Assembly: GCA_016192455.1 (NCBI GenBank) | Contig: JACPUC010000019.1 | Location: forward strand, 1 to 64,000 | Length of the DNA stretch: 64,000 bases | DNA from: Candidatus Tectimicrobiota bacterium | Lineage (GTDB): Bacteria; JACPUC01 | Direction: 5' to 3' | In this document: positions 37,290 to 54,702 of the stretch, piece by piece | Layout: each line of letters opens with the position of its first letter | How positions within the stretch are numbered: the first letter of the stretch is position 1 | Translations under genes and position numbers: made by a program | Notes under the pieces: generated by a model | The model's input: only the letters and a program-made list of their open reading frames with translations | The model's database searches: none | Told to the model about the DNA's origin: nothing

Positions 37290-38555
37290 CTACGCCGCCG
37301 CCGCCTTCGCCTCGCGCTCGCGGAGCTGCTCGTAGTACTCCCAGTCGCACATCACGTCGTTGATGTTGCAGCCGCGGCAGAAGCACGCCGGCACCGGCAG
37401 GTTATGCTTCTTGCGCAGCTCGTAGTGGCCGCGCGCCATCTTCAGGTAGTACTCGAAGGGAGCTGGGTGCGATTGCCCGGCCAGCTTCGAGTTCGCTTCG
37501 ATCACCCAGACGTCCATGCGCGGAATCACCCCATTCCCCATCAGGTAGTCGAAGCCGCCCAGGGTGGAGGCGACCGCCTCGTCCACGTCGGTGAAGCCGA
37601 AGGGACGCGCCATCTCGGAGCCGGCCACAAACGTGCTGACGATGCGGCCTTCGCCAAAGATTTCGGCGCTGCACACCATGCGCCGCACCCACTCGTGGTA
37701 GCCGATGGCCCGCGCCTTGCCGGGACACATGACGTTCCAGATGCGCTCGTCCCACACCTCGGTATTGTGGTGCAGGGTGCCGACGCCGGTGGCGAAGAGC
37801 TTGCGGGCCTCCTCCTCGCGGTGCGCCACGATCTGGAAGAAGGTGGGATACCACACCTTCAGGCGGCGGCGGATAGCCTCCAGGTAGGTGACATAGTGAT
37901 CAACCTCCTTCTGGCCCTGGAAGGTGGTCAGGATGGTGCCAGCGCTCAGGGCGATGTGACGGTAGCCAACTTCCTGCAGCGCCTGGGCCAAGACCTCCGC
38001 CACCAGCTCCGGGTCCTTGTGCACGTCGAGCTTCTCGCCGGACTTCTTCTGGAACACGGTGTGCGCCGTGAAGTCGCAGAAGAGGCACTCCTCGTTCTCT
38101 TTCCAGAACTCGCAGTACTTGTTGAAGGTGACGAAGAGCTTGTCCATGCCGACGGATTGCACGATGGAGGCCTTCGGCTTGCCGTTCTCCAGCTCTTCGT
38201 AGTAGTAGCGGGGGCGCTTGCGGAAGGTGATTTCCCCCAGCGGCTCCTCGCCGTCGTAGAGCATGAAGGAGCCGTCCCGCACGTCGATGACGTAGGGCGA
38301 GGTGTTGTTGCGGCGGAACTGGATGATGGTGTCGTCGCTCTTCAAGATGAAATCCTGCGGAATCTTCTCCCCGGCGGTGGCCGGCGTACTGACATCCTGG
38401 GAGAAGAGGAAGTAGCCCTTGAAGACGGTGTCGAGGCGGCTAAAGGCATCGATGGCGGCGGGCGTCGGGTTCACCCCCAGGCGCAGCGTTTCGATCTTGA
38501 TGATGATGCTCTCCGGAACTTCAGGATAGCGCTCGAACAACGCACGCATGCCCAT
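37290..38555 (-). CDS. Radical-SAM-like protein with C-X8-C-X2-C motif, paralogue 1
   Basis: A 421-residue protein I recognise only as radical-SAM-like. After an N-terminal domain of about 140 residues, a strand leads into three cysteines C148, C157 and C160 (NKYCEFWKENEECLFCDF), spaced C-X8-C-X2-C rather than the usual C-X3-C-X2-C. A TIM-barrel-like stretch follows (HIALSAGTIL, FQIVAHREEEARKL, TLHHNTEVWD). A second group, C391, C393, C396 and C403 (CFCRGCNINDVMC), could hold an auxiliary cluster. The ATG at 38555 follows GGGAG. It is about 90% identical to the next gene upstream. Reaction unknown. Confidence 0.7.
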   Translation of the reverse strand: MGMRALFERYPEVPESIIIKIETLRLGVNPTPAAIDAFSRLDTVFKGYFLFSQDVSTPATAGEKIPQDFILKSDDTIIQFRRNNTSPYVIDVRDGSFMLYDGEEPLGEITFRKRPRYYYEELENGKPKASIVQSVGMDKLFVTFNKYCEFWKENEECLFCDFTAHTVFQKKSGEKLDVHKDPELVAEVLAQALQEVGYRHIALSAGTILTTFQGQKEVDHYVTYLEAIRRRLKVWYPTFFQIVAHREEEARKLFATGVGTLHHNTEVWDERIWNVMCPGKARAIGYHEWVRRMVCSAEIFGEGRIVSTFVAGSEMARPFGFTDVDEAVASTLGGFDYLMGNGVIPRMDVWVIEANSKLAGQSHPAPFEYYLKMARGHYELRKKHNLPVPACFCRGCNINDVMCDWEYYEQLREREAKAAAA

Positions 38556-38658
38556 GCCGACCATCTCCCTGCTGGTGCAGCAACCCACCGCCCTGTTCGC
38601 CGCCACCGTTGGGCGACGCGGCGGCTCTCACCCGTCCTAGCCTTCCCTGCCCCGCCGA

Positions 38659-39921
38659 TCACGCCACGGCAGCCTTTGCCTCGCGCCCCCGGAGCTGCTC
38701 GTAGTACTCCCAATCGCACATCACGTCGTTGACGTTGCAGCCGCGGCAGTAACACGCCGGCACCGGCAGGTTATGTTTCCTGCGCAGCTCGTAGTAGCCG
38801 CGCGCCATCTTCAGGTAGTACTCGAAGGGGGTCGGCGGCTGCCCGGCCAGCCGCGTGTTCGCCTCGATCACCCAGACGTCCATGCGCGGGATGATGCCGT
38901 TCCCCATGAGATAGTCGAAGCCGCCCAGGGTCGAGGTGACTGCCTCGTCTACGTCGGTGAAGCCGAAGGGACGCGCCATCTCGGAGCCCGCCACAAACGT
39001 GCTGACGATGCGCCCCTCGCCGAAGATCTTGGCGCTGCGCACCATGCGCCGCACCCACTCCTGGTAGCCGATGGCGCGCGCCTTGCCGGGACACATAACG
39101 TTCCAGATGCGTTCGTCCCACACCTCGGTATTGTGGTGCAGGGTGCCGACGCCGGTGGCGAAGAGCTTGCGGGCCTCCTCCTCGCGGTGCGCCACGATCT
39201 GGAAGTAGCTGGGGTACCAGACCTTCAGACGGCGGCGGATGGCCTCGAGGTAGGTGACGTAGTGATCAACCTCCTGCTGCCCCTGGTAGGTGCTCAGGAT
39301 CGTGCCGGCGCTCAGGGCGATGTGCCGATACCCGGTCTCTTTCAGCGCCAGGGAGAGCACCTCGGCAACGAGCTCCGGGTCCTTGTGCACGTCGAGCTTC
39401 TCGCCGGACTTCTTCTGGAACACAGTGTGCGCCGTGAAGTCGCAGAACAGGCACTCCTCGTCCGCTTTCCAGAACTCGCAGTACTTGTTGAAGGTGACGA
39501 AGAGCTTGTCCACGCCGACGGACTGCACGATGGAGGCCATCGGCTTGCCGTTCTCCAGCTCTTCGTAGTAGTAGCGCGGGCGTTTGCGGAAGGTGATTTC
39601 TCCCAGCGGCTCTTGACCGTCGTAGAGCATGAAGGCGCCGTCGCGCACGTCGATGCTGTAGGGTGAGGCATGGTTGCGGCGCAACTGAATGACGGTGTCG
39701 TCGCTCTTCAAGATGAAATCCGAAGGAATCTTCTCGCCCGCGGTTGCCGGCGTGCTCACGTCCTGGGAGAAGAGAAAGTAGCCCTTGAAGACCGTGTCGA
39801 GGCGGCCAAAGGCGTCGACGGCTGCAGGCGTCGGGTTCACTCCCAGGCGCAGCGCCTCGATCTTGATGATGATGCTCTCCGGAACTTCAGGATAGCTCTC
39901 GATCAACGCGTGCATGCCCAT
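38659..39921 (-). CDS. Radical-SAM-like protein with C-X8-C-X2-C motif, paralogue 2
   Basis: A 420-residue tandem paralogue of the gene at 37290-38555, about 90% identical over its full length. All seven conserved cysteines are kept (NKYCEFWKADEECLFCDF and CYCRGCNVNDVMC). The ATG at 39921 follows GAGAGAGGG. Differences concentrate in the first 100 residues and a few helix positions, so both copies appear to be under selection. It is first in the run of minus-strand genes leading to the NitT/TauT importer and probably shares its job. The upstream gap (39922-40355, 434 bp) holds no supported gene. Confidence 0.7.
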   Translation of the reverse strand: MGMHALIESYPEVPESIIIKIEALRLGVNPTPAAVDAFGRLDTVFKGYFLFSQDVSTPATAGEKIPSDFILKSDDTVIQLRRNHASPYSIDVRDGAFMLYDGQEPLGEITFRKRPRYYYEELENGKPMASIVQSVGVDKLFVTFNKYCEFWKADEECLFCDFTAHTVFQKKSGEKLDVHKDPELVAEVLSLALKETGYRHIALSAGTILSTYQGQQEVDHYVTYLEAIRRRLKVWYPSYFQIVAHREEEARKLFATGVGTLHHNTEVWDERIWNVMCPGKARAIGYQEWVRRMVRSAKIFGEGRIVSTFVAGSEMARPFGFTDVDEAVTSTLGGFDYLMGNGIIPRMDVWVIEANTRLAGQPPTPFEYYLKMARGYYELRRKHNLPVPACYCRGCNVNDVMCDWEYYEQLRGREAKAAVA

Positions 39922-42039: not shown

Positions 42040-42522
42040 TCACCGGAGGGATGGCCCCGGCGGCGTCTCCGGCGCCACGTGGTTCTCTCGTTTGGCGCTC
42101 GCTCCGCCTGCGGCGAAGCTGCGCAGGTAGGCGATGAGGTCCTCGATCTGGTAGGGGCGCAGCGTCCTTCCCCAGGCCGGCATGAGGTAGGAGAGGCCGG
42201 CGCCTGGGCCGCCTTCGGTGATCACGCGCCGCAGGTCATCGGCGGACCTCGTCGCCATGTAGGCAGCATCGGTAAAGTCCCGCGGCGCCTTGGCCAGGAA
42301 CTCGGCGTTGCTCCCCCTGCCATCCCCACGCGGGCCGTGGCATGCGGCGCAGTAGTAAGCGTACAGCGCCTTGCCGCGCTGCAGCCGTTCCGTTCGTCGG
42401 GGCGGTGTGATGAGCGGCGCCGCCTGGCGAGGCTCCTCGGCTCCGAGCGCCGTCGCGGCCAGCACGGCCAGTGCGAGCAGGAGAGCCCCCGCCACCTTTC
42501 TTGCGCGGTCACTGCGCGTCAT
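42040..42522 (-). CDS. Monohaem class I cytochrome c
   Basis: A 160-residue exported cytochrome c. Signal peptide to about residue 28 (ALLLALAVLAATALGA). Haem is attached at C58-A-A-C61-H62 (YCAACHGPRGDG), with the sixth ligand Met in SYLMPAWG. Its start overlaps the 3' end of the octahaem cytochrome gene by 14 nt, so the two are translationally linked and the protein is probably the electron acceptor or terminal carrier of the complex. Confidence 0.93.
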   Translation of the reverse strand: MTRSDRARKVAGALLLALAVLAATALGAEEPRQAAPLITPPRRTERLQRGKALYAYYCAACHGPRGDGRGSNAEFLAKAPRDFTDAAYMATRSADDLRRVITEGGPGAGLSYLMPAWGRTLRPYQIEDLIAYLRSFAAGGASAKRENHVAPETPPGPSLR

Positions 42523-44578
42523 CGGTTTTCAAGCTCATCAGGTAGGCGGTCATGGCCGCGGCCTCGGTGTCGCTGATGCCGAGGTTCGGCATGCGCGTGT
42601 GGCGCACGAGAAGCTCAGGCGTCTGCATCATCCCCCGCACCCAGGCCGGCTGCAGCCGCGCCCCGGCGCTGCTGAGGTCCGGCCCCACCCGTCCGCCCCG
42701 CTCGCCGACGCGGTGGCAGGCGATGCACGGGTGCACCCGCGAGAACAATCGTCGCCCCTCTTGGATGAGGGCCTCGGTGCTCTCCTCCTTGCCGGGGTGG
42801 GGACCGAGCCCATCGGCGCGCAGCATGGAGGTGGCGTAGGCGACAAGGACCTCGATCTCGTTGTCAGTCAGGCGGAAATCCGGCATGCGCGCGCTCGACA
42901 GGGGGTTGCGCGGCTGCGGCTCCGCCAGGTAGCGTCGCAGCCAGGCCGGGGTGACCCGGCTCCCCAGCGCCGTGAGATCGGGACCGATGTCGCCGCCCTG
43001 GGCGCCGATGCGGTGGCACGTGAGGCAGCGATACCGCTCCACGACGGCGCTCAACTCCCCCTTATGGAGCATCGTCGGGGCGCGATCAGATGCCGAGGGC
43101 ACTCGATACTTTTGCGGCGGCTTGTGCGGCAGGCTGAGGATGAAGGTCGCCAGGGCATCGGTATCTTCCATGGCGACGTTGGGATAGGGCATCCTGGCGT
43201 CTTCGTAGAAGGTATGGGGCGTCATGATCTTGGCGAAGAGCCAGCTCTCCGCGGTGCGGTTTGCCCCCAGCTCGTTGGAACCGAAATCGAGTTCCTCAAC
43301 GCCTTTCAGCGCGAACTTCGTCAGGTCGGGGCCGGGACTCCCCTTGGGAAGGCCGCGCAGGAGATGGCAGCCGGTGCAGTTGGAGCTCAGCACGATCTCC
43401 CTGCCGCGCTTCCTGAGCTGCTCCTCGGAGGAGACCGCCCCGCCCCCTCGTTCGCTTGGCAGCGCCGGGGGGGCACTTGTGTGCCGGGCTGCGGGTTTCT
43501 CGTCTGCTGCCCTGCTCAGCAGGTAGCTTGCCAGGTTCAGTGCCTCCCGGCGCGAGAAGCGGTAGGCCGGCATGCGCCCGCTGGGCTGCTCGCGGCGGTT
43601 GTCCTGCAGGTAGCCGACCAGCCAGGCGGCGTTCACCTTCTCGCCCAGGGCGGTGAGCGGCGGGCCGATCTTCTCGGGCGCCAGCAGACCCTCCGGTTCG
43701 GGACCGGAGAAGTCATGGCAGGTGCGGCAGGCGGAGCGCTCGAAGAGCTGCTTGCCCACCTCGGCATCCGCCTGGGCGAGCTCCTCGGCGCGCAGCTCCG
43801 GACGGGGCAGGGGCGACCCTGCCGCGGCAGATGCCGCCGGCTCCTCCTCGCTCATCAGGTAGGCGACGAGCGCGTCAAGTTGCTCCTCCTTGAAGCGGTA
43901 GTTCGGCATGCGCGCCGCCGGCCAGACCTGCTGCGGGTCCTGCAGGTAGCGTCGCACCCAGGCGGCGCTTGTCTTCCGCGGTAGGTGATCGAGGCTCGTC
44001 TTCGCCTCGGCCGGCAGCTCCCGGCCGCTCACCGTGTGGCAGCCCAGGCAGTTGAGGCGCTCGAAAAGCTGCTGCCCCCTGACGGCGCGCGGCGCCTCCA
44101 CCACCCGGGGCTGGGCGTGGCAGCCGAGGCAGGGAGCTTCCAGAAAGGCCGCCGGCAGCAGCGGGTACTTCCAGCTCGCCTTGCGGCCGTGCCCGCCGTC
44201 AACGCTTGTGCCAAGGCCATCGCCGCGATGGCACACCGTGCAGCCGAAGGACTCGACCGGATGGAAGCGCAGGAACGGCTCGGGATGCGCCGTGAGCGGC
44301 TGCGGCCAGGCGGCGGCGCGCTCCTCCGTCACGCCGAGGTGGCACGTCGTGCAGCGGTCGAGCACGCCGAGGGCCGGCACGTTGATCTGCGCGATGCCCT
44401 TGACCGCAGCCTCTCCCTTTGCTGCCGGGGCGGCTTGCCCCGTCCCGGCCGCCGGCCGCACCAGGCGCGCGTACTCCTCCTGGTGGCCCACCCAGTCGCG
44501 CTGCCGATCCCTCCACACAGCGAGCAGGATCGCCGCCAGCAGGGCGAAGCTGAAGAGCACGAAGAGGACATACCTCAT
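42509..44578 (-). CDS. Membrane-anchored octahaem cytochrome c
   Basis: A 689-residue protein with one N-terminal membrane helix and eight CXXCH sites. The first three (C76-H80, C113-H117, C150-H154) are close together in a multihaem head. The other five lie in tandem class I cytochrome c modules, each followed by a W-L/V-xx-YL segment and a Met-Pro ligand (ARMPNYRF, GRMPAYRF, ARMPYPNV, ARMPDFRL, TRMPNLGI). It takes the place of cytochrome c1/f in a Rieske/split-b complex: genes for cyt b subunits and Rieske lie directly upstream in transcription order, with 1 bp between it and the cyt b C-terminal subunit. Located at the periplasmic face. Confidence 0.93.
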   Translation of the reverse strand: MRYVLFVLFSFALLAAILLAVWRDRQRDWVGHQEEYARLVRPAAGTGQAAPAAKGEAAVKGIAQINVPALGVLDRCTTCHLGVTEERAAAWPQPLTAHPEPFLRFHPVESFGCTVCHRGDGLGTSVDGGHGRKASWKYPLLPAAFLEAPCLGCHAQPRVVEAPRAVRGQQLFERLNCLGCHTVSGRELPAEAKTSLDHLPRKTSAAWVRRYLQDPQQVWPAARMPNYRFKEEQLDALVAYLMSEEEPAASAAAGSPLPRPELRAEELAQADAEVGKQLFERSACRTCHDFSGPEPEGLLAPEKIGPPLTALGEKVNAAWLVGYLQDNRREQPSGRMPAYRFSRREALNLASYLLSRAADEKPAARHTSAPPALPSERGGGAVSSEEQLRKRGREIVLSSNCTGCHLLRGLPKGSPGPDLTKFALKGVEELDFGSNELGANRTAESWLFAKIMTPHTFYEDARMPYPNVAMEDTDALATFILSLPHKPPQKYRVPSASDRAPTMLHKGELSAVVERYRCLTCHRIGAQGGDIGPDLTALGSRVTPAWLRRYLAEPQPRNPLSSARMPDFRLTDNEIEVLVAYATSMLRADGLGPHPGKEESTEALIQEGRRLFSRVHPCIACHRVGERGGRVGPDLSSAGARLQPAWVRGMMQTPELLVRHTRMPNLGISDTEAAAMTAYLMSLKTDDAQ

Positions 44579-44579
44579 C

Positions 44580-45356
44580 TCACATCGACCCCCACGGCGT
44601 CGTCACCACGTAGTGCACATCCCACAGCAGCCGCAGGGCGATCTTCAGGAAGACGCCGCCCATGAGGGCGAGCAGGCTGACCATCCAGACGTAGCGGAAG
44701 CGTCCCATGCGCGGCAGGAACGAACCACGGAAGCGCCATCCCAGGCAGGCGACGAGGAGGAGGTAGGCGCCCACGACGAGCGCGCCGGCGAGCGGCGAGA
44801 AGCTCCAGCTCTGCGCGGCCCCGTTCTGCCCCTGCCCTGCCGCAACCGCCGACCAGGGCGTCACGAAGCGCCATCCCGCTCCGCGGAACCACGCCCCGAC
44901 GAGGATGAGGAGGAACCAAAACGTCAGGCCGACAGTGAACACGACGTTGCCGAAACGGCGGCTGCGGCGTGGCGTTGGGCTGCGCCCGGTTCTGCGGCTG
45001 TCTTCGAGGAACGGCAGCGACATGAGCCCAAGGACGATAAGGCCGGGAATCACCACGCCGGCCATCCAGGGGTCGAAGTAGACGAGGAGCTCCTGCAGCC
45101 CCACGAAGTACCAGGGCGCCTTGGTCACCGCCGGCGTGAAGGCGGAGTTTGCCTCACCCTCCAGGGGAGCATCGAAGACCACGGAAAGGAGAACGAAGAA
45201 CGCCGTCACCGCCAGGACAGCCAGCAGTTCGAGGAAGACGAGGGTCGGGTAGCTCGGCACCCTGTCGGCCCCATCGGGGCCTTGACGCGCGGCGCCCACC
45301 TCAGTTTCCTCCGCCTCCCCCGAAGCCGCGGCCTCGAGCGGCGCGTTTTCCAGCAT
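44580..45356 (-). CDS. Cytochrome b C-terminal subunit (subunit IV/PetD-like)
   Basis: A 258-residue membrane protein corresponding to the C-terminal half of cytochrome b. The quinol-site region is seen in KAPWYFVGLQELLVYFDPWMAG, close to the PEWY-bearing segment in other complexes. Four or more further hydrophobic helices follow, more than in PetD. The N-terminal ~35 residues are charged and non-conserved. The ATG at 45356 has GGAG at 6 nt. It pairs with the b6-like subunit at 45459. Confidence 0.88.
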   Translation of the reverse strand: MLENAPLEAAASGEAEETEVGAARQGPDGADRVPSYPTLVFLELLAVLAVTAFFVLLSVVFDAPLEGEANSAFTPAVTKAPWYFVGLQELLVYFDPWMAGVVIPGLIVLGLMSLPFLEDSRRTGRSPTPRRSRRFGNVVFTVGLTFWFLLILVGAWFRGAGWRFVTPWSAVAAGQGQNGAAQSWSFSPLAGALVVGAYLLLVACLGWRFRGSFLPRMGRFRYVWMVSLLALMGGVFLKIALRLLWDVHYVVTTPWGSM

Positions 45357-45458
45357 CCTTTTCTCCACCTCCAGGCTCCTCCCCCCAAACCTCACTCCGG
45401 TGGGCGCCGGCAAGGGCTGCAACAAGCACCGCCCTGCTCCCCGCTCGCTTCCCCACTC

Positions 45459-46202
45459 TTAGAGCGGCGTCTTCAGCATGCCGTCCTTCCGCACCCGCCA
45501 GAAGTGCACCATCATGAGGACGATGGCGACGACCGGCAAGACGAAGACGTGCAGGACGTAGAAGCGGATCAGCGAGCTCTCGCCGATGACCCGGCCGCCA
45601 AGGAAGTAGAACCCCACATCGGTGTTGAGATCGACCAGGCTGGCCGGACCCGCGGCGCCGAGGACCGGCATGGCGCGCAGCATGTTCGTGCCCACCGAGG
45701 TGGCCCAGTACGCCAACTGATCCCACGGCAGCAGGTAGCCGGTGAAGCTGAGGAAGAGAGTCAGGACCAGCAGGCTCACCCCTACCACCCAGTTGAACTC
45801 GCGCGGCGGTTTGTAGGCGCGCGCATAGACGACGCGCGCCATGTGCGCAATAACCGTCAGAACCATCCCATGCGCCGCCCAGCGGTGCAGGTTGCGCAGG
45901 AACTGTCCCATGGTCACGGCGTACTCGAGGTCCTTCATGTCGCGGTAAGCGAAGGCCGTCGTCGGACGGTAGTAGAACATCAAGAGGAGCCCGGTGACGG
46001 TCAAGATGATGAAGAGGAGGAAGGAGATGCCGCCCATGCAGAAAGTCGTCGTCAGGCGCAGGCGCTGGCGCGGCAGGGTGGCGGGATGCAGGTGCAGGAA
46101 GAAGTTGTTGCGGGCCGCCTGCTTCTGCTCGCGCGGGCTGCGCGGCAGAGGGCGGCGGAAGACGGCGCGCCAGACCTGGCTGGTGAGAATCGCCTTGCGC
46201 AT
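45459..46202 (-). CDS. Cytochrome b N-terminal subunit (b6-like)
   Basis: A 247-residue four-helix cytochrome b that binds two haems. Ligand pairs are H106/H120 ([18 protein letters not shown]) and H218/H233 (YVLHVF...MVHFW); the 15-residue step in the second pair is the cytochrome b6 spacing. [14 protein letters not shown] is the conserved quinone-site loop. Split b6 plus subunit IV organisation points to a b6f-like quinol:cytochrome c oxidoreductase. Confidence 0.93.
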
Positions 46203-46265
46203 GCCTTGGTCCTTCCGGCTCGCGGGGCGCTCGGCAGAGCCGCAGCGCCACCCTGCCAGCTCCGC

Positions 46266-46880
46266 TCACGCATTGATGACGAAGGGGGCGCGATCGCGCT
46301 GGCCAGGCTGGTTGGCTTGCTCGGGGAGGCGGATGCCGGCAAGCCCGTTGCGCACGAGGAGGCGTCCATCGCGGGTCAGGTGGAGAGGGCTGCGATAGAG
46401 CGGTTCGGGCGCCGGCCCTTTGACCACATCACCCTCAAGGTCGAAGACCGAGCCATGGCAGGGACAGCGGAAGACCTGCTCGCTGGGGGTCCAGCGCGGG
46501 GTGCAGGCAAGGTGGGTGCAGATGGAGACGAGCGCGTAGAGCCGCGCATCACGCCGCACCAACCACACCTTCTGGTCCTCCACCCATTGGGTGTTCACGG
46601 TGTCGGCCGGAAGATCAGCGACGGGGGCGGGACTGAAGGTGGCCGGCGGCTCGTCGACGACGTTCGGCTTCATGAACCGCACCAGGTTGTAGCCGGAGAT
46701 GAGGGAGGCAAGAGAGAGCCCCCCGAAGCCGGTCCACAGGCAGAAGGTGCGTCGATCAAGCTGGCGTGCGGCATTCCCGCGGGGAGAGGAATCCCCTCCC
46801 TGCGGAGACGCCTGCTCCGCTCCCTCCGGCCGAGAGTTAGTTGGTGTTGGCTCTCTGCTCACGACCCGCTCCTCTAGCAC
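46266..46880 (-). CDS. Rieske [2Fe-2S] protein
   Basis: A 204-residue Rieske subunit. The N-terminal anchor carries a Tat-like LDRRTF before a hydrophobic stretch (GGLSLASLISGY). The cluster ligands are C121 and H123 (CTHLAC) and C139 and H142 (CPCHGS), with C126/C141 for the disulfide. It transfers electrons from quinol at the cyt b site to the multihaem cytochrome. First gene of the complex operon (Rieske, b, b', octahaem c, monohaem c). Confidence 0.95.
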   Translation of the reverse strand: MLEERVVSREPTPTNSRPEGAEQASPQGGDSSPRGNAARQLDRRTFCLWTGFGGLSLASLISGYNLVRFMKPNVVDEPPATFSPAPVADLPADTVNTQWVEDQKVWLVRRDARLYALVSICTHLACTPRWTPSEQVFRCPCHGSVFDLEGDVVKGPAPEPLYRSPLHLTRDGRLLVRNGLAGIRLPEQANQPGQRDRAPFVINA

Positions 46881-47304
46881 CTTACACCTGCGGAGACCAC
46901 TCCTCAGATGGGAAGGAGAGGCCGCCGAGCCGCCGCCGTCCCTGCCGCAACGGAGAGCCCCAGGCGCTCTCCGCCGTCCGCTGCAATGAAGGTAGCTGAA
47001 CGTTCACACGACACCGACCTTAGGCGAGAATGTGTAACCCGAATCTTGCCGGCGCAAGGGCATCTAGAGATCGTTCCGTGGGTCTCCGCCTCTCGGCCGC
47101 CAGGGGTTGCGCCGGCGGGGAAACAGCGCACCCTCGCCGCTGGGTTATGCGGCATCCGGTACCCTCAATCTCCGTCGTTCTGCTCGTTAGACGACGCCCT
47201 GTTCCATCCAGAAGCCCCAGCTTCGCGGCAGCGCGGCGCCGCCGTTTGCCCTATCGCGCTCCCCTTGCGGCCGCGCTGATGGGATGGCCGCCCCCACCCT
47301 GGGT
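46881..47304. other. Intergenic region upstream of the Rieske operon
   Basis: No gene supported. One 7-bp GC-rich hairpin (CGGAGAG / CTCTCCG) lies near 46952-46974 without a T-run. It separates the cytochrome maturation cluster from the complex genes on the same strand. Confidence 0.4.
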
Positions 47305-47631
47305 TCACTCGACAAGCAGGCGCAAGCCGCGCAGCGCTCGGATGCGCACCACATCTCCCACGGCATGGGCGGTGGCGGCGCGGGCCTCCCACAGCTCGTT
47401 GGCGTAGCGCACCCTGAGATTGCGGCCGCACACGCCGATGACCTCCACCTCCTTGCCGATCATCGCTTCCGAGCCGCAGAGCGACTGCTTCCGCATGACC
47501 TGGAAGACCAGGAGGTACATGGCGACGGCGAGGCTGTTCACGAAGCCGTAGCCGGCCAGCGCCCAGGGCAGCGGCACAATCCAGAAGAGGATGAGACCGA
47601 ACGCCGGCATCCCCAGGAGGACGTGGCACAT
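47305..47631 (-). CDS. Small NfeD-like membrane protein
   Basis: A 108-residue protein with two N-terminal hydrophobic segments and a C-terminal OB-fold domain of the NfeD type (GKEVEVIGVCGRNLRVRYANELWEA-like pattern ending in VVRIRALRGLRLLVE). A GAGGGTGAG site precedes the ATG. NfeD domains usually assist SPFH proteins or membrane proteases; none is adjacent. It lies 222 bp downstream of the selenocysteine thioredoxin gene, in a stretch with no convincing frame of its own. Confidence 0.7.
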   Translation of the reverse strand: MCHVLLGMPAFGLILFWIVPLPWALAGYGFVNSLAVAMYLLVFQVMRKQSLCGSEAMIGKEVEVIGVCGRNLRVRYANELWEARAATAHAVGDVVRIRALRGLRLLVE

Positions 47632-47853
47632 GACTCACCCTCAGGCTCTGAGATGGCGAGCGGCTCCGCAACCCAGGTGGTGAACAGGACGCCGCGCGGC
47701 AATCTCGTCGAAGCGCACCATCAGCCTGCCCAGGCGCCTGGCTTGCGGCGGGCCCCTGCCGGTGGGAACGCCATGATCTTGGGCTTGCCAGCGGGCCCGG
47801 CGGAACACCGCCGCAGGTGCCGCCTTCACACTCAGAGCAGCCCACGCCAGCCT

Positions 47854-48456
47854 TCAAGTCTCTTCGAGGAGCTGCTTGATGAAACGATTGATGCCGGGAG
47901 AGGTCCACTCCCGCGGGCCCACGGCGACGGCCACGAGGCGACCGCGCTTGTCGATCAGGAAGCTCTCCGGATGGCCGCTGATGCCGTAGTCTTGCGCCAC
48001 CGCGCTGCGCGTGTCGAGGAGGCTGCGGAAGGTCCAGCCGCGGCGCTGCATCTGCCGCGTCACCATCCCCTCAACCTCACCGACATTGACGGCGAGCACC
48101 ACGAACCGCGGATCATCTTGAAACGTTTCCATCAGCTTTTGAATTGAAGGAGACTCCTTCAAGCATGACTGTCACCAGGTGGTCCGAAAGGTGAGGAAGA
48201 CCACCTTGCCGAGGAAGCTCTGCAGGTCCACGCGGACGCCTCTGGTGTCCTGCAGCGAGAAGGTCGGCGCCGGGGAGCGCGGCTCATACATCTTCATGAA
48301 CACCGCGTAGCCTTCGGCGTTGCGCCGCAGGAGCGCTTCACGCTCGACCACCTTGCGCGCCAGCAGAACCAGGAAGATCAGGATCAACCCCCCCATGACC
48401 CAGACGCCGTAGCCCCGGAAGACGCGCACCGCAGCTTCACCCGTCTTAGTAATCAA
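47854..48456 (-). CDS. Selenocysteine-containing TlpA/CcmG-like thioredoxin (U-x-x-C)
   Basis: Read through an in-frame UGA (48172-48174), this is a 200-residue membrane-anchored thioredoxin. It has a TM segment at about 17-33, then PAPTFSLQDTRG and LGKVVFLTFRTTW-Sec95-QSC98-LKESPS. UGA replaces exactly the first active-site Cys of the W-C-x-x-C motif. Downstream are VVLAVNVGEVEG, the redox-fold helix and cis-Pro YGISGHPESFLIDKRG, all in the same frame. The TTG at 48456 follows AGAGGAG and overlaps ccmH by 11 nt; GTG at 48429 is an alternative. A 7-bp hairpin with a 5-nt loop follows the UGA. By family and context it would reduce apocytochrome or CcmH thiols in the periplasm. Confidence 0.85.
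48144..48162 (-). promoter_or_regulatory. Candidate bacterial SECIS hairpin in the thioredoxin mRNA
   Basis: Directly downstream of the UGA, the transcript reads UUGAAGG-AGUCU-CCUUCAA: a perfect 7-bp stem and 5-nt loop with G at loop position 2. The loop begins 16 nt after the UGA, the lower edge of the spacing known for SelB-dependent elements. Confidence 0.7.
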
Positions 48457-48940
48457 GGTGGTGCAACTCCTCTTGTAAACGTTGGCGGTACATGGCCAGG
48501 TGGGCCTCCTGCAGCTCCGTCGTGGAGGCCTTGGGGGACGCATCGGGGCTCTCCCTGCGACGCTTGTTCGACCACAGGAAGAGCACACTGCTGAGCAGGA
48601 ACCCGGCCCCCACCAGGACCGCGAACGGGGTCACCCAGGCGGTGAGATCGAAGCCCCGCTTGGGGGGCGCCGCCAGGATCTTGGCGCCGTACTGGTCGAC
48701 AAAGTAGGCGATGATCTGTTCCTTCGTCTGACCGGCGGCAAGTTTCTCCGTGATGAGCGCCTTGGCCGGCACCGCCCACCCCTGCATCTCGCAGATAGCG
48801 AGAACCTTGTTGCAGCCGCACTGGCAGATGAGGTCGGCGGCCACGTCCTGCATAGTCACCCCTGCGCTCGCCGCATGCCCTGCCCCATGGAGGAGCAGGA
48901 ACGCGACCAAGAGGATGCCGAGCAGCGTGACGGTTCTCAT
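48446..48940 (-). CDS. ccmH: Cytochrome c maturation protein CcmH
   Basis: A 164-residue exported thiol protein with signal peptide (LLGILLVAFLLLHGAGHA), the paired-cysteine motif LICQCGCNKVLAIC, and a C-terminal membrane helix (VTPFAVLVGAGFLLSSVLFLW). CcmH keeps apocytochrome CXXCH thiols reduced and presents them to CcmF. The ATG at 48940 overlaps the zinc-ribbon gene stop by 4 nt; its 3' end overlaps the selenocysteine thioredoxin start. Confidence 0.9.
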   Translation of the reverse strand: MRTVTLLGILLVAFLLLHGAGHAASAGVTMQDVAADLICQCGCNKVLAICEMQGWAVPAKALITEKLAAGQTKEQIIAYFVDQYGAKILAAPPKRGFDLTAWVTPFAVLVGAGFLLSSVLFLWSNKRRRESPDASPKASTTELQEAHLAMYRQRLQEELHHLDY

Positions 48941-49512
48941 GGGCGCGACTCCTCTGCTGGGGCTGCGGCGGTGTTCCGAGCGAGCGCGGCGCCGCAAGCG
49001 GAGCAGAGCGTTTCACTCCTTGGCGCCAGGCGCCCGCAGCTCCAGCACGAAATTCGACATGGCGCGCCGCACTGCGTGCAGAAAAAGTTTCCGGCCCGCA
49101 GGAGATGGCCGCAGGAGCGGCAGCGGTCGGCCGGCGCGGCGAGCGACTCCATCTGCGCACCCGCCTCTGCCGAGAAGGCCGGGACGCCCGCCCCTCTCCG
49201 CTCTTCCCCTCGCCGGCGGCGTCGATCCCCCTTGAACTCCCGCGGTCGGGCATCCAGCTCCTGGAGGATCGCAATGGCTGCCTCGGATTGCGCCGCGTGC
49301 AGCTCCGCGAAGTCTTCCGCCGAGAGCTTGCCGGTGAGGTGATCGAGCTCCAGATCCTTCAGGGCCAGCAGGGCCGCCTCCTTGCGCTCCCACAGCTCAT
49401 CGGCGGCGCCCCGCCGGGAGCTCTCCTTGGCGCCCCGGAACCAGCGCGAGAAGGGGTAGCTCACCACGCCGGCCGCAACGATGATGATGGCAAGCTCAAG
49501 CAACACGATCAT
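48937..49512 (-). CDS. CcmI-like membrane protein with C-terminal double zinc ribbon
   Basis: A 191-residue protein. One N-terminal membrane helix (LLELAIIIVAAGVVSYPFSRW) and a helical segment with KEAALLALKDLELDHLTGKLS resemble the CcmI N-terminal part. The C-terminal ~60 residues hold four Cys pairs (CRSC, CTQC, CWSC, CSAC), a double zinc ribbon. Start ATG overlaps the ccmF stop by one base. CcmI proteins act as apocytochrome chaperones with CcmF and CcmH; here the TPR domain is replaced by zinc ribbons. Confidence 0.78.
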   Translation of the reverse strand: MIVLLELAIIIVAAGVVSYPFSRWFRGAKESSRRGAADELWERKEAALLALKDLELDHLTGKLSAEDFAELHAAQSEAAIAILQELDARPREFKGDRRRRRGEERRGAGVPAFSAEAGAQMESLAAPADRCRSCGHLLRAGNFFCTQCGAPCRISCWSCGRLAPRSETLCSACGAALARNTAAAPAEESRP

Positions 49513-51581
49513 CAGGCGCCCTCCTCGGAAGCGTTGGGGAAGCCGTAGGCGCGCGAGCTTCGCAGCGCCGCGGCAGGGCTGGCGAGCGCCGGCGCAGCCG
49601 CGTCCCGCGCCGGCTGCCGACCCTGCGACGGGGCGCGCGCGCCACGCAGCTCCGGCACCGGCAAACCGGTGATGAGGGTGCCGAGGATCCAACCCAGGCC
49701 ACCCAGCCAGAGCCAGGAGATGAGGGGGTTGATGACCGCTTTCACGACGATGCGGTCGCGCTCCATCTCAGCCAGGATGACGTAGAGGTCCTCCTTCAAG
49801 GTTGAGCGCACCGCCACCTCGGTGGTGCTTTGCTCTTGCCGGAAGTGGTACTCCTTGCGGGGTTTCAGCGTCCCGAGCGAGGTCCCCCCGCGCCAGACGC
49901 TCAGCGTCACCTCCAGGACCTCCTTCCCCGGCTCGCGCCAGAGGTTGACGGTGTCAAGCTGCAGGCGGTACTCCCGCACGCTCAGGGACTCGCCCCGCAG
50001 CAGCCCAGCTTGGTGCTCCGTCTGGAAGGCGCTGCCGGTGATCCCCACGACCATCATGAGGACGCCGAGGTGGATGACGTAGCCGCCATAGCGCCGGCGG
50101 TTGCGCCCGAACAGCCCGATGAGCGCCTGCGCCCAGCCCGCCCCCTTCATCTGCTGGCGAGCCCGTGTGCCGCGGTAGAACTCGATGATGATCGAGGCGC
50201 CCACGAACGCCGCAAGGCCGAAGCTTATCACCACAAAGGGGTCGCGCAGCCCGCCCAGCACCATGCCGAGCAGCGCCAGCCCGCCCAGCAGCGCCGGCGG
50301 CACGAGGTTGCGCCGCAGGTTGCGGGCCGTCGCCTTGCGCCAGGCGATGAGCGGGCAGATGCCGGTGAGCAGCAGCATGGCCAGGAAGATCGGCGCCATC
50401 ACCTGGTTGAAGAACGGCGGCCCCACCGTCAGCTTCACGCCGCGCACCGCCTCGGAGATGAGGGGGAAGATCGTCCCCCACAGCACCGCGAAAGCGCCGC
50501 CGACGAGGAGCAGGTTGTTGAACAGGAAACTGCTCTCCCTCGAGATGAACGAATCGAGCTGGTGGGCGCTCTTCAGCAGCGGCAGCCGCCACACCAGGAG
50601 GCTCAACGAGCCAAACAGCACAACGCCCATGAAGCCCAGGAGGAGCGGTCCAACCGAGGCCTGCGCGAAACTGTGCACCGAAGTAATGACGCCGCTGCGG
50701 GTGAGGAAGGTGCCGAACAGCGTCAGCGAGAAGGTCGCCATGATGAGCGCCATGTTCCAGACTTTCAGCATCCCCTTCTTCTCCTGGATCATCACCGAGT
50801 GGAGGAAGGCGGTGCCGGTGAGCCAGGGCATGAAGGAGGCGTTCTCCACCGGGTCCCACATCCAGAAGCCACCCCAGCCCAACTCGTTGTAAGCCCACCA
50901 CGAGCCAAAGAGGTTGCCTATGCCCAGGAAGAACCAGGCGAAGAGTGTCCAGTTGCGCGTGCGGCTCACCCACTCATTCCCCACCTTCCCCGCCAGCAGG
51001 GCGCCGATGGCAAAGGCGAACGGAACGGTGAAGCCGATGTATCCCAGGTACAGCGTCGGCGGATGGAAGAACATGCCGGGGTTCTGCAGCAAGGGGTTCA
51101 AGCCGCGGCCATCAGCCGGCACTTGCGCCGCAAGCTCGAAGGGGTTGCTGCTGAAGTTCGTCAACGCCAGGAAGAAGGTCAGCACCGTGAGCAGCACCGG
51201 CAGCACGTAGGGGAAGATGTCGCTCGGTCGCCGCTCGTTCTGCACGATCACCACCACGACCATGAGCGACAGCACCCACACCCAGAAGAGGAGGGACCCT
51301 GCGAGACCGCCGTAGAACGCCGACAACGTGTAGACCAGCGACAGATCGCGGCTGGTGTAGCTGGCGACATACTGCAGGGAGAAGTCCCGGGTCACCAGGG
51401 CATAGATGAGCGCCGCCGAGGCCACGCTGAGCAGGACGCCGAGCATCACGCCGGCGCCAAGGGCGCTGGCGGTGGAAGCCCCGTGCCGGCGTTTGGCGCC
51501 GAGGACCGACACCCCCAAGCCATAGAGTGCCAGCAGGAACGCGAAGAAGAGAGCAAAGCGGCCAAGGTCGATCATGCGCAC
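49512..51581 (-). CDS. ccmF: Cytochrome c haem lyase CcmF
   Basis: A 689-residue polytopic membrane protein that attaches haem to apocytochrome c. The periplasmic haem-binding WWD domain is clear at about 227-252 (GSWWAYNELGWGGFWMWDP). Conserved HPP and LHSVMIQEKKGML histidine segments flank it. About 15 hydrophobic helices and a large periplasmic segment near the C-terminus match the family. The start may be M1 or M3. It lies between the small membrane gene and the CcmI-like gene in one cluster. Confidence 0.95.
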   Translation of the reverse strand: MRMIDLGRFALFFAFLLALYGLGVSVLGAKRRHGASTASALGAGVMLGVLLSVASAALIYALVTRDFSLQYVASYTSRDLSLVYTLSAFYGGLAGSLLFWVWVLSLMVVVVIVQNERRPSDIFPYVLPVLLTVLTFFLALTNFSSNPFELAAQVPADGRGLNPLLQNPGMFFHPPTLYLGYIGFTVPFAFAIGALLAGKVGNEWVSRTRNWTLFAWFFLGIGNLFGSWWAYNELGWGGFWMWDPVENASFMPWLTGTAFLHSVMIQEKKGMLKVWNMALIMATFSLTLFGTFLTRSGVITSVHSFAQASVGPLLLGFMGVVLFGSLSLLVWRLPLLKSAHQLDSFISRESSFLFNNLLLVGGAFAVLWGTIFPLISEAVRGVKLTVGPPFFNQVMAPIFLAMLLLTGICPLIAWRKATARNLRRNLVPPALLGGLALLGMVLGGLRDPFVVISFGLAAFVGASIIIEFYRGTRARQQMKGAGWAQALIGLFGRNRRRYGGYVIHLGVLMMVVGITGSAFQTEHQAGLLRGESLSVREYRLQLDTVNLWREPGKEVLEVTLSVWRGGTSLGTLKPRKEYHFRQEQSTTEVAVRSTLKEDLYVILAEMERDRIVVKAVINPLISWLWLGGLGWILGTLITGLPVPELRGARAPSQGRQPARDAAAPALASPAAALRSSRAYGFPNASEEGA

Positions 51582-51817
51582 GACTCCACCGTCGCCGAGC
51601 TGCCGTGGCGGGCTTGCGGGCGCTGCGCCGACGGCAGGCGGGCATCAGGTAACCTCTTTGCATTGGTGCGGCCGCAGCCGCCGGAATGCGGTCCATGCGC
51701 ACGGGGTCGCGCTCCAACTACCGCCGGGGGATCACCCGAACAGGGAGGGAGCAACCAACGTGGCAAAGATGGAGCGCGGCGGCGGATGCGAGCCCTCGCA
51801 GGGCGAGGCTGCGTCCC

Positions 51818-52132
51818 TTACATGGAGGCGAGCGTGAGGCGAGGAGGTCGGAAGAAGGAGGTGTGGAGGAGGCGCACCCGGGGTGGATGGGCAAGCCACC
51901 GCAACCGGCTGGCGAACAGCGGCCCCAGCACCAGGGGTAGCGCCGCTACGGCAATGCAGCACCCTGCTGGCGCGGGCGTGGACATATGCCCGCTCTCTTG
52001 TAACGTCAGGAGACAGATGTTGAGCAACACCAGGAAGACGCAGAGCGCCAGGATGAGACCCCGCTGCTGGTGGTGGATACGGGCGAGTCTACGCATGCTG
52101 GATCGGCTATCCTGAACTGGAAAGGTGTTCAT
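51818..52132 (-). CDS. Small membrane protein of unknown function
   Basis: A 104-residue protein with two hydrophobic segments (LILALCVFLVLLNICLL and CCIAVAALPLVLGPLFA). The ATG at 52132 follows AAAGGA. No known domain. It lies between the DUF1573-like selenoprotein gene and ccmF on the same strand, so it may assist the same process. The 236 bp to ccmF hold no further gene. Confidence 0.5.
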   Translation of the reverse strand: MNTFPVQDSRSSMRRLARIHHQQRGLILALCVFLVLLNICLLTLQESGHMSTPAPAGCCIAVAALPLVLGPLFASRLRWLAHPPRVRLLHTSFFRPPRLTLASM

Positions 52133-52204
52133 GTCCTTTAAGATGCGCCGCTGGTCGCAGCGCCTCCTTGGTTCCAGCAACGTCCTCAATGCCGCGTCAC
52201 CGTC

Positions 52205-52735
52205 TCAGGGCACGATGAAGTTCCCCTTGATGCGCAAGCGCGTCTCCGGTTGGCGCGGATCGTTCGATTTGATCACCGCTTCGAAGAGGTGCGGTCCTTC
52301 CATCCCCTTGTGCATCATGACGGAGGTGGTCACGGTTCCAGAGAAGCCGGGCTGCAGGGTGACCTCACGGATCACCATCTCCGGCGGTCAGCACCCCTCG
52401 AGCACTTTCATTTGGATCTTCTGATCGCGCCCGAACTCATTGGTGATGCGCAGCTCCGCATCGCCGACGTTGCGGTACACGAACGCATAGGGAGCCAGAC
52501 GATCAATGTACACCTTGCCGAAATCGACGAACTGGGTGTCAAACTCGATCTTCGGCCCCAACGCCACCGCCGGCCCGCCGGGCGCCGCGGCAAGGGGCGC
52601 GAGCTGCGCCGCGGCAGCCGCCCCCGCCGACCAGCTCAGGGCCACGACAGCGGACAGCAGGAGCAGGCCGCACACCGCCACGACGATGCGCGGGAAGCGT
52701 TCCAAGACTCTAGCTCGCGCGCGGCAATCTCTCAT
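52205..52735 (-). CDS. DUF1573-like exported selenoprotein with Cys-Sec motif
   Basis: Read through UGA at 52388-52390 this is a 176-residue protein. It has an N-terminal hydrophobic signal/anchor (VVAVCGLLLLSAVVALSW), then a DUF1573-type Ig-like domain: VDFGKVYIDRLAPYAFVYRN, a MKVLEG-C115-Sec116-PPE turn, LQPGFSGTVTTSVMMHKG, and SNDPRQPETRLRIKG. The 60 codons after the UGA complete the domain, so the UGA is internal and falls where DUF1573 proteins have their conserved cysteines. A 7-bp hairpin follows at 18 nt. It is first in the cluster with ccmF/ccmH and a second Sec protein, and may pass electrons to or from it. Confidence 0.82.
52358..52376 (-). promoter_or_regulatory. Candidate bacterial SECIS hairpin in the DUF1573-like mRNA
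   Basis: The transcript reads GGUGAUC-CGUGA-GGUCACC: seven pairs (one U-G) and a 5-nt loop with G at position 2. The loop begins 18 nt after the UGA, in the allowed window and very like the element in the thioredoxin gene. Confidence 0.65.
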
Positions 52736-53310
52736 CTCCCCTCCCTGCTATGCACCGCGTCTGATTTGTGGGAGCGTTCCTCGCCTCTCAAGGGTGGCAC
52801 GCCATCTTTCATGGCTAACTTCATGCCTGCGTGACCTTAAAACCTTGACCGACATCAAAATCTCGAGGAGGAGCGCATCCTACGGCGGCAGGGCTTCCGC
52901 TGGCGCAGAGAGCTAATACCATCCTATAAGTTCCAACACCTCATTCTGACAGGGGGCCTTCTCTCCTCCGCGCACTCCGTAGGAGCGGATCGTAGGGGCG
53001 GGGCTTGCCCCGCCCGGCGCTTACGTCTGCGAGGGAACCTTGTCCCCTCGCGCACCCCGCCTTGTAGGGGCGGTTCGCGAACCGCCCCTACGGGATGGGG
53101 GTATGGGGGAGCATGGGTCCCTCATAAGCTCCTTGCCAATCCAGCGAGCAACGCCGCAACTAGGTGAGCGAACTTGTGGGACACACCACGAACGGGTGGG
53201 ATCGAACCTTTGGGGGCATGTCATGTGATAGGATAGGGTGGTGCAAGTGTAGAACTCCCCGCAGCGGGAGTCCTCCCGCCTTCAACAACCGAGAATTCGG
53301 TGGAGAAGCC
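52736..53310. other. Intergenic region with palindromic repeats between divergent genes
   Basis: No gene is supported. It holds a copy of the GCGAGGG/CCCTCGC repeat at about 53029-53060, the intact 28-bp palindrome at 53064-53091 and a GGGGCGGGGC/GCCCCGCC variant near 52991-53020. It must also hold promoters for the selenoprotein cluster and the amidase, but none is clear. Confidence 0.5.
53064..53091. repeat. 28-bp perfect palindromic repeat, copy B
   Basis: Identical to 29267-29294 (arms GTAGGGGCGGTTCG / CGAACCGCCCCTAC), 24 kb away, again in intergenic DNA next to GCGAGGG-type hairpins. Confidence 0.85.
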
Positions 53311-54702
53311 ATGGAACTACTCTCTGCTTCAGCAACTGAGCTGGCCCGCGCCATCCGTGCCAAGGAAGTCTCCTCCTCCGAGGCGGTGGAGGCGTACCTG
53401 CGGCGCATCGAGGAGATCAATCCCAAGCTCAACGCGGTGGTGGTGGTGACAGCGGAGCGAGCGCGTGCCGAAGCCAAAGAGGCGGATGCGGCGCTGGCGC
53501 GGGGCAGCGTGAAGGGGCCGCTCCACGGCCTGCCCGTGACCATCAAGGACGCCTTCGAGACGGCCGGCGTGATCTCCACCGGCGGCACGCTGGGACGAAA
53601 AGCGTTCGTTCCGGAACGGGACGCCACCGCCGTGGCTCGTCTGCGCGCCGCGGGAGCCATCATGCTCGGCAAGACGAACTGCCCCGAGCTGAGCCTGGCG
53701 TTTGAGAGCGACAACCTTGTCTACGGTCGCACCACCAACCCGTATGACCTGTCGCGGACCCCCGGCGGCAGCTCCGGCGGCGAGGCCGCCATCATCGCCG
53801 CCTGTGGCTCGCCCCTCGGCCTGGGCAGCGACGCGGCCGGAAGCATCCGGCTGCCGTCGCATTACTGCGGCATCGCCGGGATCAAGCCGACCACCGGTCG
53901 CGTGCCGAGGACCGGCCATTTCCCTTCTCCCGACGGCGTGACGCAACCGCTGTGGCAGGTTGGCCCGATGGCCCGCCGAGTGGAGGACCTGATCCTGGTC
54001 CTGCCCATCATCGCCGGCGTGGACTGGTGCGATCCGGCAATCGTGCCGATGCCGCTCGGCGACCCCGCCGGCGTCAAGATCGCCGGGCTGCGGGTTGCGT
54101 TCTACACGGATAACCGCATCTTCGCGCCCACGCCGGAGACGGCCGGGGTAGTGGAGGCGGCGGCGAAAGCGCTTGCCGATGCGGGTGCGGTGGTGGAGGA
54201 GGCGCTGCCGACGGGGATCGAGCAGACCGCCGAGCTTACCAAGGCGGTGCTTGGCGGGGACGGAGGCGCCACGGTGCAGGGCCTCTTACAGGCCGCCGGC
54301 ACCACCGAGATGAGCCCGCTGCTGCAACGCCGGCAGAAGATTCGCACCGCGGGGAAGCTGCCGATTGATGAGTTCTACCGCCAGATGACGCGCTGGCAAA
54401 AGTTTCAGAGTTCCATGCTGGCGTTTTTCCAGCCTTACGACGTGATCATCTGCCCCGCGAACGCCGCCCCGGCCATGCCGCACGGAACCACCAGCGATCC
54501 CGACAAGTTCCTCGCCTTCATGTACACCCTCACCTACAACCTCACCGGCTGGCCCGGCGTGGTGGTGCGGGGAGGAACGTCAGCCGAGGGCTTGCCGATC
54601 GGCGTGCAGGTTGTCGCCCATGCCTGGAAGGAGCACGTCGCCCTGGCGGTGGCCCAGCACCTCGAACGTCTGCTGGGTGGCTGGCAGCCCCCGCCGCTGT
54701 AA
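53311..54702 (+). CDS. Amidase signature family hydrolase
   Basis: A 463-residue Ser-cisSer-Lys hydrolase. The catalytic residues are visible: K79 (VTIKDAFE), S154 in PGGSSGGEAA and nucleophile S178 in LGSDAAGSIRLPS. The pattern is nearer to free-standing amidases (FAAH/6-aminohexanoate type) than to GatA, and no gatB or gatC is adjacent. The ATG at 53311 follows GGAG; the frame is open upstream but non-conserved. It hydrolyses an amide to acid and ammonia; substrate unknown. Confidence 0.88.
   Translation: MELLSASATELARAIRAKEVSSSEAVEAYLRRIEEINPKLNAVVVVTAERARAEAKEADAALARGSVKGPLHGLPVTIKDAFETAGVISTGGTLGRKAFVPERDATAVARLRAAGAIMLGKTNCPELSLAFESDNLVYGRTTNPYDLSRTPGGSSGGEAAIIAACGSPLGLGSDAAGSIRLPSHYCGIAGIKPTTGRVPRTGHFPSPDGVTQPLWQVGPMARRVEDLILVLPIIAGVDWCDPAIVPMPLGDPAGVKIAGLRVAFYTDNRIFAPTPETAGVVEAAAKALADAGAVVEEALPTGIEQTAELTKAVLGGDGGATVQGLLQAAGTTEMSPLLQRRQKIRTAGKLPIDEFYRQMTRWQKFQSSMLAFFQPYDVIICPANAAPAMPHGTTSDPDKFLAFMYTLTYNLTGWPGVVVRGGTSAEGLPIGVQVVAHAWKEHVALAVAQHLERLLGGWQPPPL

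Follow-up and report, generated by a model that had tools for sequence, protein, structure and literature searches.

A cytochrome c maturation cluster with two UGA-containing genes

A stretch of 64,000 nucleotides from an uncultured bacterium, Candidatus Tectimicrobiota (positions 1 to 64,000 of contig JACPUC010000019.1, assembly GCA_016192455.1; hereafter the window), contains five minus-strand genes that are transcribed in the order DUF1573-like gene, ccmF, ccmI-like gene, ccmH and trxU (Table 1). The first and the last of them contain an in-frame UGA. We call the product of the last, a thioredoxin-like protein with the active site U-x-x-C, where U is selenocysteine (Sec), TrxU, and that of the first, a DUF1573-like protein with a Cys-Sec pair, the CU protein. 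Cytochrome c maturation relies on the reduction of thiols outside the cytoplasm, and from these genes the bacterium appears to use selenocysteine in an enzyme that prepares proteins for the attachment of haem.

In a preliminary description of this DNA, two UGA-containing genes on one strand bracketed ccmF, ccmH and the ccmI-like gene, and the coordinates agree. The close or overlapping junctions that it also described were found in most of the cluster. For instance, ccmF and the ccmI-like gene, as well as the latter and ccmH, overlap by ATGA, and ccmH and trxU overlap by 11 nt if trxU starts at the TTG at 48456, just upstream of which lies AAGAGGAG; 48429 and 48396 are alternative starts. Translational coupling of trxU to ccmF-ccmI-ccmH is thus predicted. 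The DUF1573-like gene, on the other hand, lies 629 nt from ccmF and shows no coupling. Downstream, the nine-haem c-type respiratory module of the preliminary description was confirmed by counting CXXCH motifs (eight in 42509-44578 and one in 42040-42522), and an NfeD-like gene is also found among the genes further downstream. These cytochromes are likely clients of the cluster.

Table 1. Features of the cluster and its surroundings in the window
Feature	Position	Strand	Details
Respiratory genes downstream: Rieske protein, cytochrome b in two parts, eight-CXXCH and one-CXXCH cytochromes	42040-46880	-	
trxU, membrane-anchored ResA/CcmG-like thioredoxin	47854-48456	-	Active site WUQSC; cis-Pro region YGISGHPESF; UGA 48172-48174
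SECIS-like hairpin, trxU	48144-48162	-	8-bp stem; loop GUC starts 17 nt after UGA
ccmH, haem lyase thiol subunit	48446-48940	-	CQCGC motif; Pfam CcmH 64.5 bits
ccmI-like gene	48937-49512	-	C-terminal double zinc ribbon; Pfam DZR 31.4 bits; similar gene in the G031 cluster by tblastn
ccmF, second copy in genome	49512-51575	-	Pfam CcmF_C 206.6 bits; 55% identity to the C2 copy
Small open reading frame with hydrophobic stretch, between ccmF and DUF1573-like gene	51818-52189	-	May not be a gene; no family found in family search
DUF1573/Ig-like Cys-Sec (CU) protein	52205-52735	-	GCUPPE, then MHKGMEGPH; N-terminal membrane anchor or signal; UGA 52388-52390
SECIS-like hairpin, DUF1573-like gene	52358-52376	-	7-bp stem; 5-nt loop; same register in four genomes

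CcmF and CcmH are each encoded at least twice in this genome. The C2 locus (L123:8241-15963) carries ccmE, ccmF and ccmA-B-C-like genes (ccmA-C named by eye), and in C22 (L120:6583-7821) CcmH adjoins a CcmG-like protein of the Cys type (WCPTC, GVPETF). The window is therefore predicted to hold an extra CcmF/CcmH set with a Sec-containing reductant, parallel to the Cys one. Second sets of this kind exist in other bacteria, such as NrfEFG, a second CcmF/CcmH/CcmI set that is dedicated to a special CXXCK haem site. The set in the window likewise lies away from the main ccm locus, but it falls below the cut-offs of the nrfE and nrfF models and includes a Sec CcmG-like gene. No CXXCK was found in the five downstream proteins examined, and the neighbouring cytochromes carry CXXCH sites only.

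Selenocysteine reading of the UGA codons

By all the indirect tests applied, both genes are predicted to be selenoprotein genes. In each frame the UGA is the only stop codon and falls on the active-site position, and codon-position G+C is similar on its two sides in both genes. The same genome encodes SelB (366 bits against a cut-off of 242), the adjacent SelA (579 bits against 268), one tRNA-Sec (anticodon tca, 75.5 bits) and a LysR regulator that matches a selenium-linked model.

Conservation was studied in a domain-wide sample of 386 genomes (all 386 for TrxU; first 98 and then 386 for the CU protein), supplemented for the CU protein by 18 genomes from the phylum of genome G137; phylum-level searches around the window's own genome (G000), G056 and G031 covered one genome each. 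The other genomes compared below are labelled G057, G261 and G394. In relatives from other phyla, the UGA is kept at the same place in both proteins, with conserved sequence on both sides. The closest relative of TrxU among the matches listed, from G031, is 47% identical and has its UGA in FRTTWUHSC. The CU family comprises, besides the protein of the window, members in G056 and G137 from the domain-wide sample and in G394 from the phylum of G137 (2 of the 18 genomes there), and the UGA lies within GCUPP in all four. SelB scored above its cut-off in eight of the ten genomes tested, including G000, G031, G137 and G394, and in four of the five that carry trxU or CU genes.

In bacterial selenoprotein genes, a SECIS hairpin is expected shortly after the UGA. 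In eight of the nine UGA-containing genes examined, the loop of the best hairpin begins 17-19 nt past this codon, the exception being the second UGA thioredoxin gene of the window's genome. Across the four CU genes, all 28 cells of the 7-bp stem are paired and three of the seven pairs show double changes; sliding the partner by 1-3 columns as a control lowers pairing to 32-61%. A set of four thioredoxin genes, out of 15 UGA-containing rows (the window, G031 and 13 others) among the matches listed, is paired at 92.9%, with double changes at two of seven pairs. An Rfam scan of 47000-53500 gave zero matches above gathering scores.

Could the UGAs instead be true stops, frameshifts or assembly errors in broken genes? 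The assembly comprises 31 contigs at 88% completeness, which would leave room for such errors. Nevertheless, a lone UGA at the active site of both genes, its retention in other phyla, the covarying hairpins and the Sec machinery in the genome make this explanation highly improbable, and we rejected the pseudogene reading owing to the conservation of the UGA and the covariation of the hairpins.

TrxU, the CU protein and their neighbours

TrxU belongs to the AhpC-TSA/Redoxin families of Pfam and, in NCBIfam, falls among the TlpA/ResA/DsbE proteins. ResA is its best model there (86 bits; cut-off 170), followed by TlpA at 58 bits, also under its cut-off, and solved ResA structures rank among the best matches for structural relatives. 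It presents a hydrophobic N-terminal stretch (by eye) and a thioredoxin fold with U-x-x-C replacing C-x-x-C. The traits of CcmG given in PMC5909903 include a membrane anchor, the sequence GVXGXPETF, a Glu three residues after the second Cys, a Pro between the two active-site residues and, just before the cis-Pro, a small hydrophobic residue; ResA and HP0377 are described there as also departing from some of these, and every CcmG protein in the table of that source uses two Cys. The fingerprint G-x-x-G-x-P-E-S/T-F occurs in TrxU as GISGHPESF (V to I, T to S) and in its G031 relative as GITGHPETF. In both proteins a Glu also follows the second active-site residue at a distance of three (SCLKE and SCKQE), but this Glu is unspecific, being present in 48 of 49 aligned relatives. 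P-E-S/T after the cis-Pro is found in 16 of these 49 and, among the matches listed, in three of the 15 UGA-containing rows (window, G031 and G261), two of which are the ccm-linked pair. In a tree, TrxU and the G031 protein form one clade (support 100/99); elsewhere UGA rows are scattered among Cys rows, and much of the tree is weakly supported.

Thus, TrxU resembles CcmG/DsbE and ResA in its fold, N-terminal hydrophobic stretch, fingerprint, Glu and gene position beside ccmF/ccmH, whereas it differs in the Sec that replaces the first Cys, in a Q-S dipeptide without Pro, in the His before the cis-Pro and in scores below the cut-offs. Selenoproteins of the UxxC thioredoxin-like type, both thiol-disulfide isomerase-like and of the redoxin family, are already known (PMC13188914). 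TrxU shares with them a TlpA/redoxin-type fold with U-x-x-C but has in addition the ccm link and the CcmG fingerprint; the passages of that source on these proteins mention no link to ccm genes.

The preliminary description had placed both Sec genes with cytochrome maturation, and ccm genes do recur beside them in relatives, in counts that are small and come from a sample not designed for counting ccm neighbours. In G031, ccmF, ccmH and a zinc-ribbon ccmI-like gene adjoin trxU, with ccmF about 1.4 kb away; among the matches listed, ccm genes are thus near TrxU in both genomes, including that of the window. The CU gene has ccmF or ccmE nearby in three of four genomes (own, G056 and G394). For instance, the 7-kb contig of G056 also encodes CcmF and DsbD_2/CcdA-like, Rieske, glutaredoxin-like and cupredoxin/Cox2-like proteins, and the 8.7-kb contig of G394 encodes CcmE (84 bits), a PCYCGC protein, a 4Fe-4S membrane protein, a cytochrome b561 and a multihaem cytochrome. 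As a control, we found CcmF or CcmH at none of the 13 other UGA thioredoxin loci among the matches listed, 12 from elsewhere and the second UGA gene of the same genome (4.6-19.5 kb fetched for each). By an arithmetic estimate, a random 20-kb stretch would include one of the three known ccm places of this genome in about 1-2% of cases.

Some details of these loci may be recorded here. The second UGA gene of the window's genome (G000:C27:116487-117023; L028:6482-7066, minus) encodes a TlpA/ResA-like protein with ATWUPYC and has no CcmF or CcmH within its 13 kb. The CcmE of G394 (L117:4708-5187) has ACPSKFE at what we take to be the usual position of the haem-binding His region and is perhaps a Cys-type CcmE. 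The PCYCGC-family protein on the same contig as the CU gene (L117:3590-3979) belongs to the family of the listed OS_HP4 selenoprotein.

The CU protein scores 22.4 bits with Pfam DUF1573 (cut-off 26.1) and 32 bits with the HYDIN/VesB Ig model. With NF041425, the model of the OS_HP2 selenoprotein, the four CU proteins reach 21.4, 26.1, 42.2 and 25.0 bits against a cut-off of 100, whereas a classical UGC protein from G057 scores 104.9 bits. DUF1573/OS_HP2 selenoproteins are given with UGC or UxC in the relevant parts of PMC13188914, PMC9312934 and PMC2398784. In our alignment, the classical C/U-G-C-T becomes E/Q-G-C-U in the CU proteins, where the first Cys is lost and Sec follows the second. The four CU proteins have MxxGMxGxHxF in common, which none of the four aligned classical DUF1573 domains contains, and they all retain Cys115, Sec116, Met141, Met145 and His149. 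Compared with DUF1573/OS_HP2 (PF07610, NF041425), the CU protein therefore shares an Ig-like DUF1573-type domain with Sec near the same loop but differs in its E/Q-G-C-U-P-P motif, which replaces C-G-C/U-G-C, in the added MxxGMxGxH and in its sub-cut-off scores. We consider it a putative new subgroup of distant DUF1573-type Ig-like domains. The label DUF1573-like was right as to the fold, but the alignment places Sec away from the site known in DUF1573 selenoproteins. Single-sequence AlphaFold predictions of the whole protein and of its mature part were poor (pLDDT 47 and 39), and a plasmid tblastn search with the CU protein gave zero matches. The classical UGC protein of G057 (G057:C1:3582699-3583160; L029 / L025) adjoins CcdA-like, thioredoxin-like and rhodanese-like genes (by eye, tblastn), and known-type DUF1573 selenoproteins thus also accompany thiol-transfer genes at this locus.

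Possible roles of the two proteins

The coupled junctions, the conservation of the UGA, the SECIS-like hairpins, the Sec machinery, the CcmG fingerprint and the recurrence in G031 beside ccm genes lead us to read TrxU as a selenocysteine CcmG. On this evidence, all of it from sequence, we lean towards the explanation that the cluster is a second CcmF-CcmH(-CcmI-like) haem-lyase set with a selenocysteine CcmG as thiol reductant. TrxU would be anchored on the outer side of the membrane. There, the selenolate at the first position of U-x-x-C would attack a disulfide bond, either in CcmH or in the CXXCH of an apocytochrome; the Cys that follows would resolve the mixed bond, and the reduced CXXCH would pass to CcmF for haem attachment, with the nine-haem respiratory cytochromes next door as probable recipients. 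We infer the periplasmic location of TrxU, its reducing direction, its substrates and its electron source. The CU protein, in turn, may help in the same cytochrome/oxidase maturation, by thiol-selenol exchange or metal handling.

Several observations weigh against this explanation. TrxU reaches only 40 bits with the NCBIfam dsbE model (cut-off 123), and the dipeptide without Pro and the His before the cis-Pro, both shared with the G031 protein, leave two of the CcmG traits unmatched. Only one close relative of TrxU was found in the 386-genome sample, among the matches listed, and its gene is on the opposite strand, divergent from ccmF and in a separate operon. Neither CcmF nor CcmH was found in 20 kb around the CU gene of G137, nor in 19 kb around the gene of G261, the third UGA protein with the P-E-T-F fingerprint. 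G056 has no SelB above the cut-off, only a shorter match below it of the size of an EF-Tu-like protein, so that Sec decoding is unproven in that genome. The hairpin energies are unexceptional when taken singly (matched by 3-17% of control windows in ordinary genes; shuffle z-scores of about 0 to -4), although shared position and covariation seem to us the stronger hairpin evidence. Finally, given the canonical ccm genes elsewhere in the genome, not every cytochrome would need the Sec enzyme.

TrxU could also be a general periplasmic thiol-disulfide reductase that stands beside the ccm genes by chance, one instance among many of Sec and Cys replacing each other in the TlpA/ResA family. The scatter of UGA members among Cys members in the tree, the second UGA TlpA-like gene of this genome, which lacks such neighbours, and the Sec-containing UxxC thiol-disulfide proteins already known (PMC13188914) would all suit this view, but we consider it unlikely, given the CcmG fingerprint shared with the ccm-linked G031 protein, the coupling to ccmH and the absence of CcmF/CcmH from the 13 other UGA loci among the matches listed. 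The suggestion in the preliminary description that the pair could keep CXXCH thiols reduced suits TrxU, which agrees with the CcmG/ResA type, reductases of the CXXCH of apocytochromes, but the CU protein as its dedicated partner is not supported. Such a relay, in which the CU protein would give electrons to or take them from TrxU, and TrxU would reduce CcmH or the apocytochrome, agrees with the position of both genes on the same strand, flanking the same ccm genes, and with general chemistry, as a vicinal Cys-Sec pair is able to carry two electrons. Nevertheless, the relay is unproven and appears distinctly unlikely: the CU gene is uncoupled, no CU match was found in G031, which has TrxU, and G056 and G137, which have the CU gene, gave only Cys thioredoxin matches among those listed. 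Among the genomes tested, the two genes occur together only in that of the window (G394 was outside the TrxU search), and a conserved pairing of the two, which we considered, is unsupported for this reason.

For the CU protein, the conserved Met, Met and His beside Cys-Sec make metal handling as open as thiol exchange. It might handle metal (copper) or haem through a soft-metal site that Cys-Sec and these residues would build on its Ig-like fold; TrxU might then, like TlpA, maintain this site or a CuA/Sco-type chaperone in the reduced state. The retention of all five residues in the four CU proteins, the absence of Met/Met/His from the four classical domains and the cupredoxin/Cox2-like gene on the G056 contig point in this direction. 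Moreover, TlpA of Bradyrhizobium reduces ScoI and CoxB, according to PMC5909903, and several CU-motif selenoproteins stand beside mercury-related names in PMC13188914. In contrast, the closeness of these residues is not readable from the poor models, the family comprises four sequences only, and the genes recognised beside the CU gene in the window include none for an oxidase or for copper. We regard metal handling as a possibility of the lesser kind, to be held tentatively. Broader still, and doubtful, is the idea that cytochrome c/oxidase maturation in several uncultured phyla uses selenium twice, in a Sec CcmG and in a maturation chaperone whose Ig-like domain would bear a copper- or haem-binding selenolate site of Cys-Sec-(Met, Met, His).

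UxxC thioredoxin-like and DUF1573 selenoproteins are known kinds, and as far as our searches show the novelty lies in the CU site and in the occurrence of a Sec CcmG-like protein within a ccm operon; no report of selenoproteins in ccm clusters was found by title or abstract start in the open-licence literature. The presence of Sec and Cys CcmG-like paralogues in one genome offers a built-in comparison of the benefit of selenium. The CU subgroup, for its part, would add a new Sec position in a domain of unknown function and, by linking this domain to the assembly of cytochromes in more than one lineage, make that function testable.

Elsewhere in the window, 37290-38564 and 38659-39921 form an adjacent and highly alike gene pair of unassigned function on the minus strand, and a CcsA/CcmC-type protein (Pfam Cytochrom_C_asm; 11246-12046) adjoins a gene at 9923-11188 that by eye looks like glutamyl-tRNA reductase.

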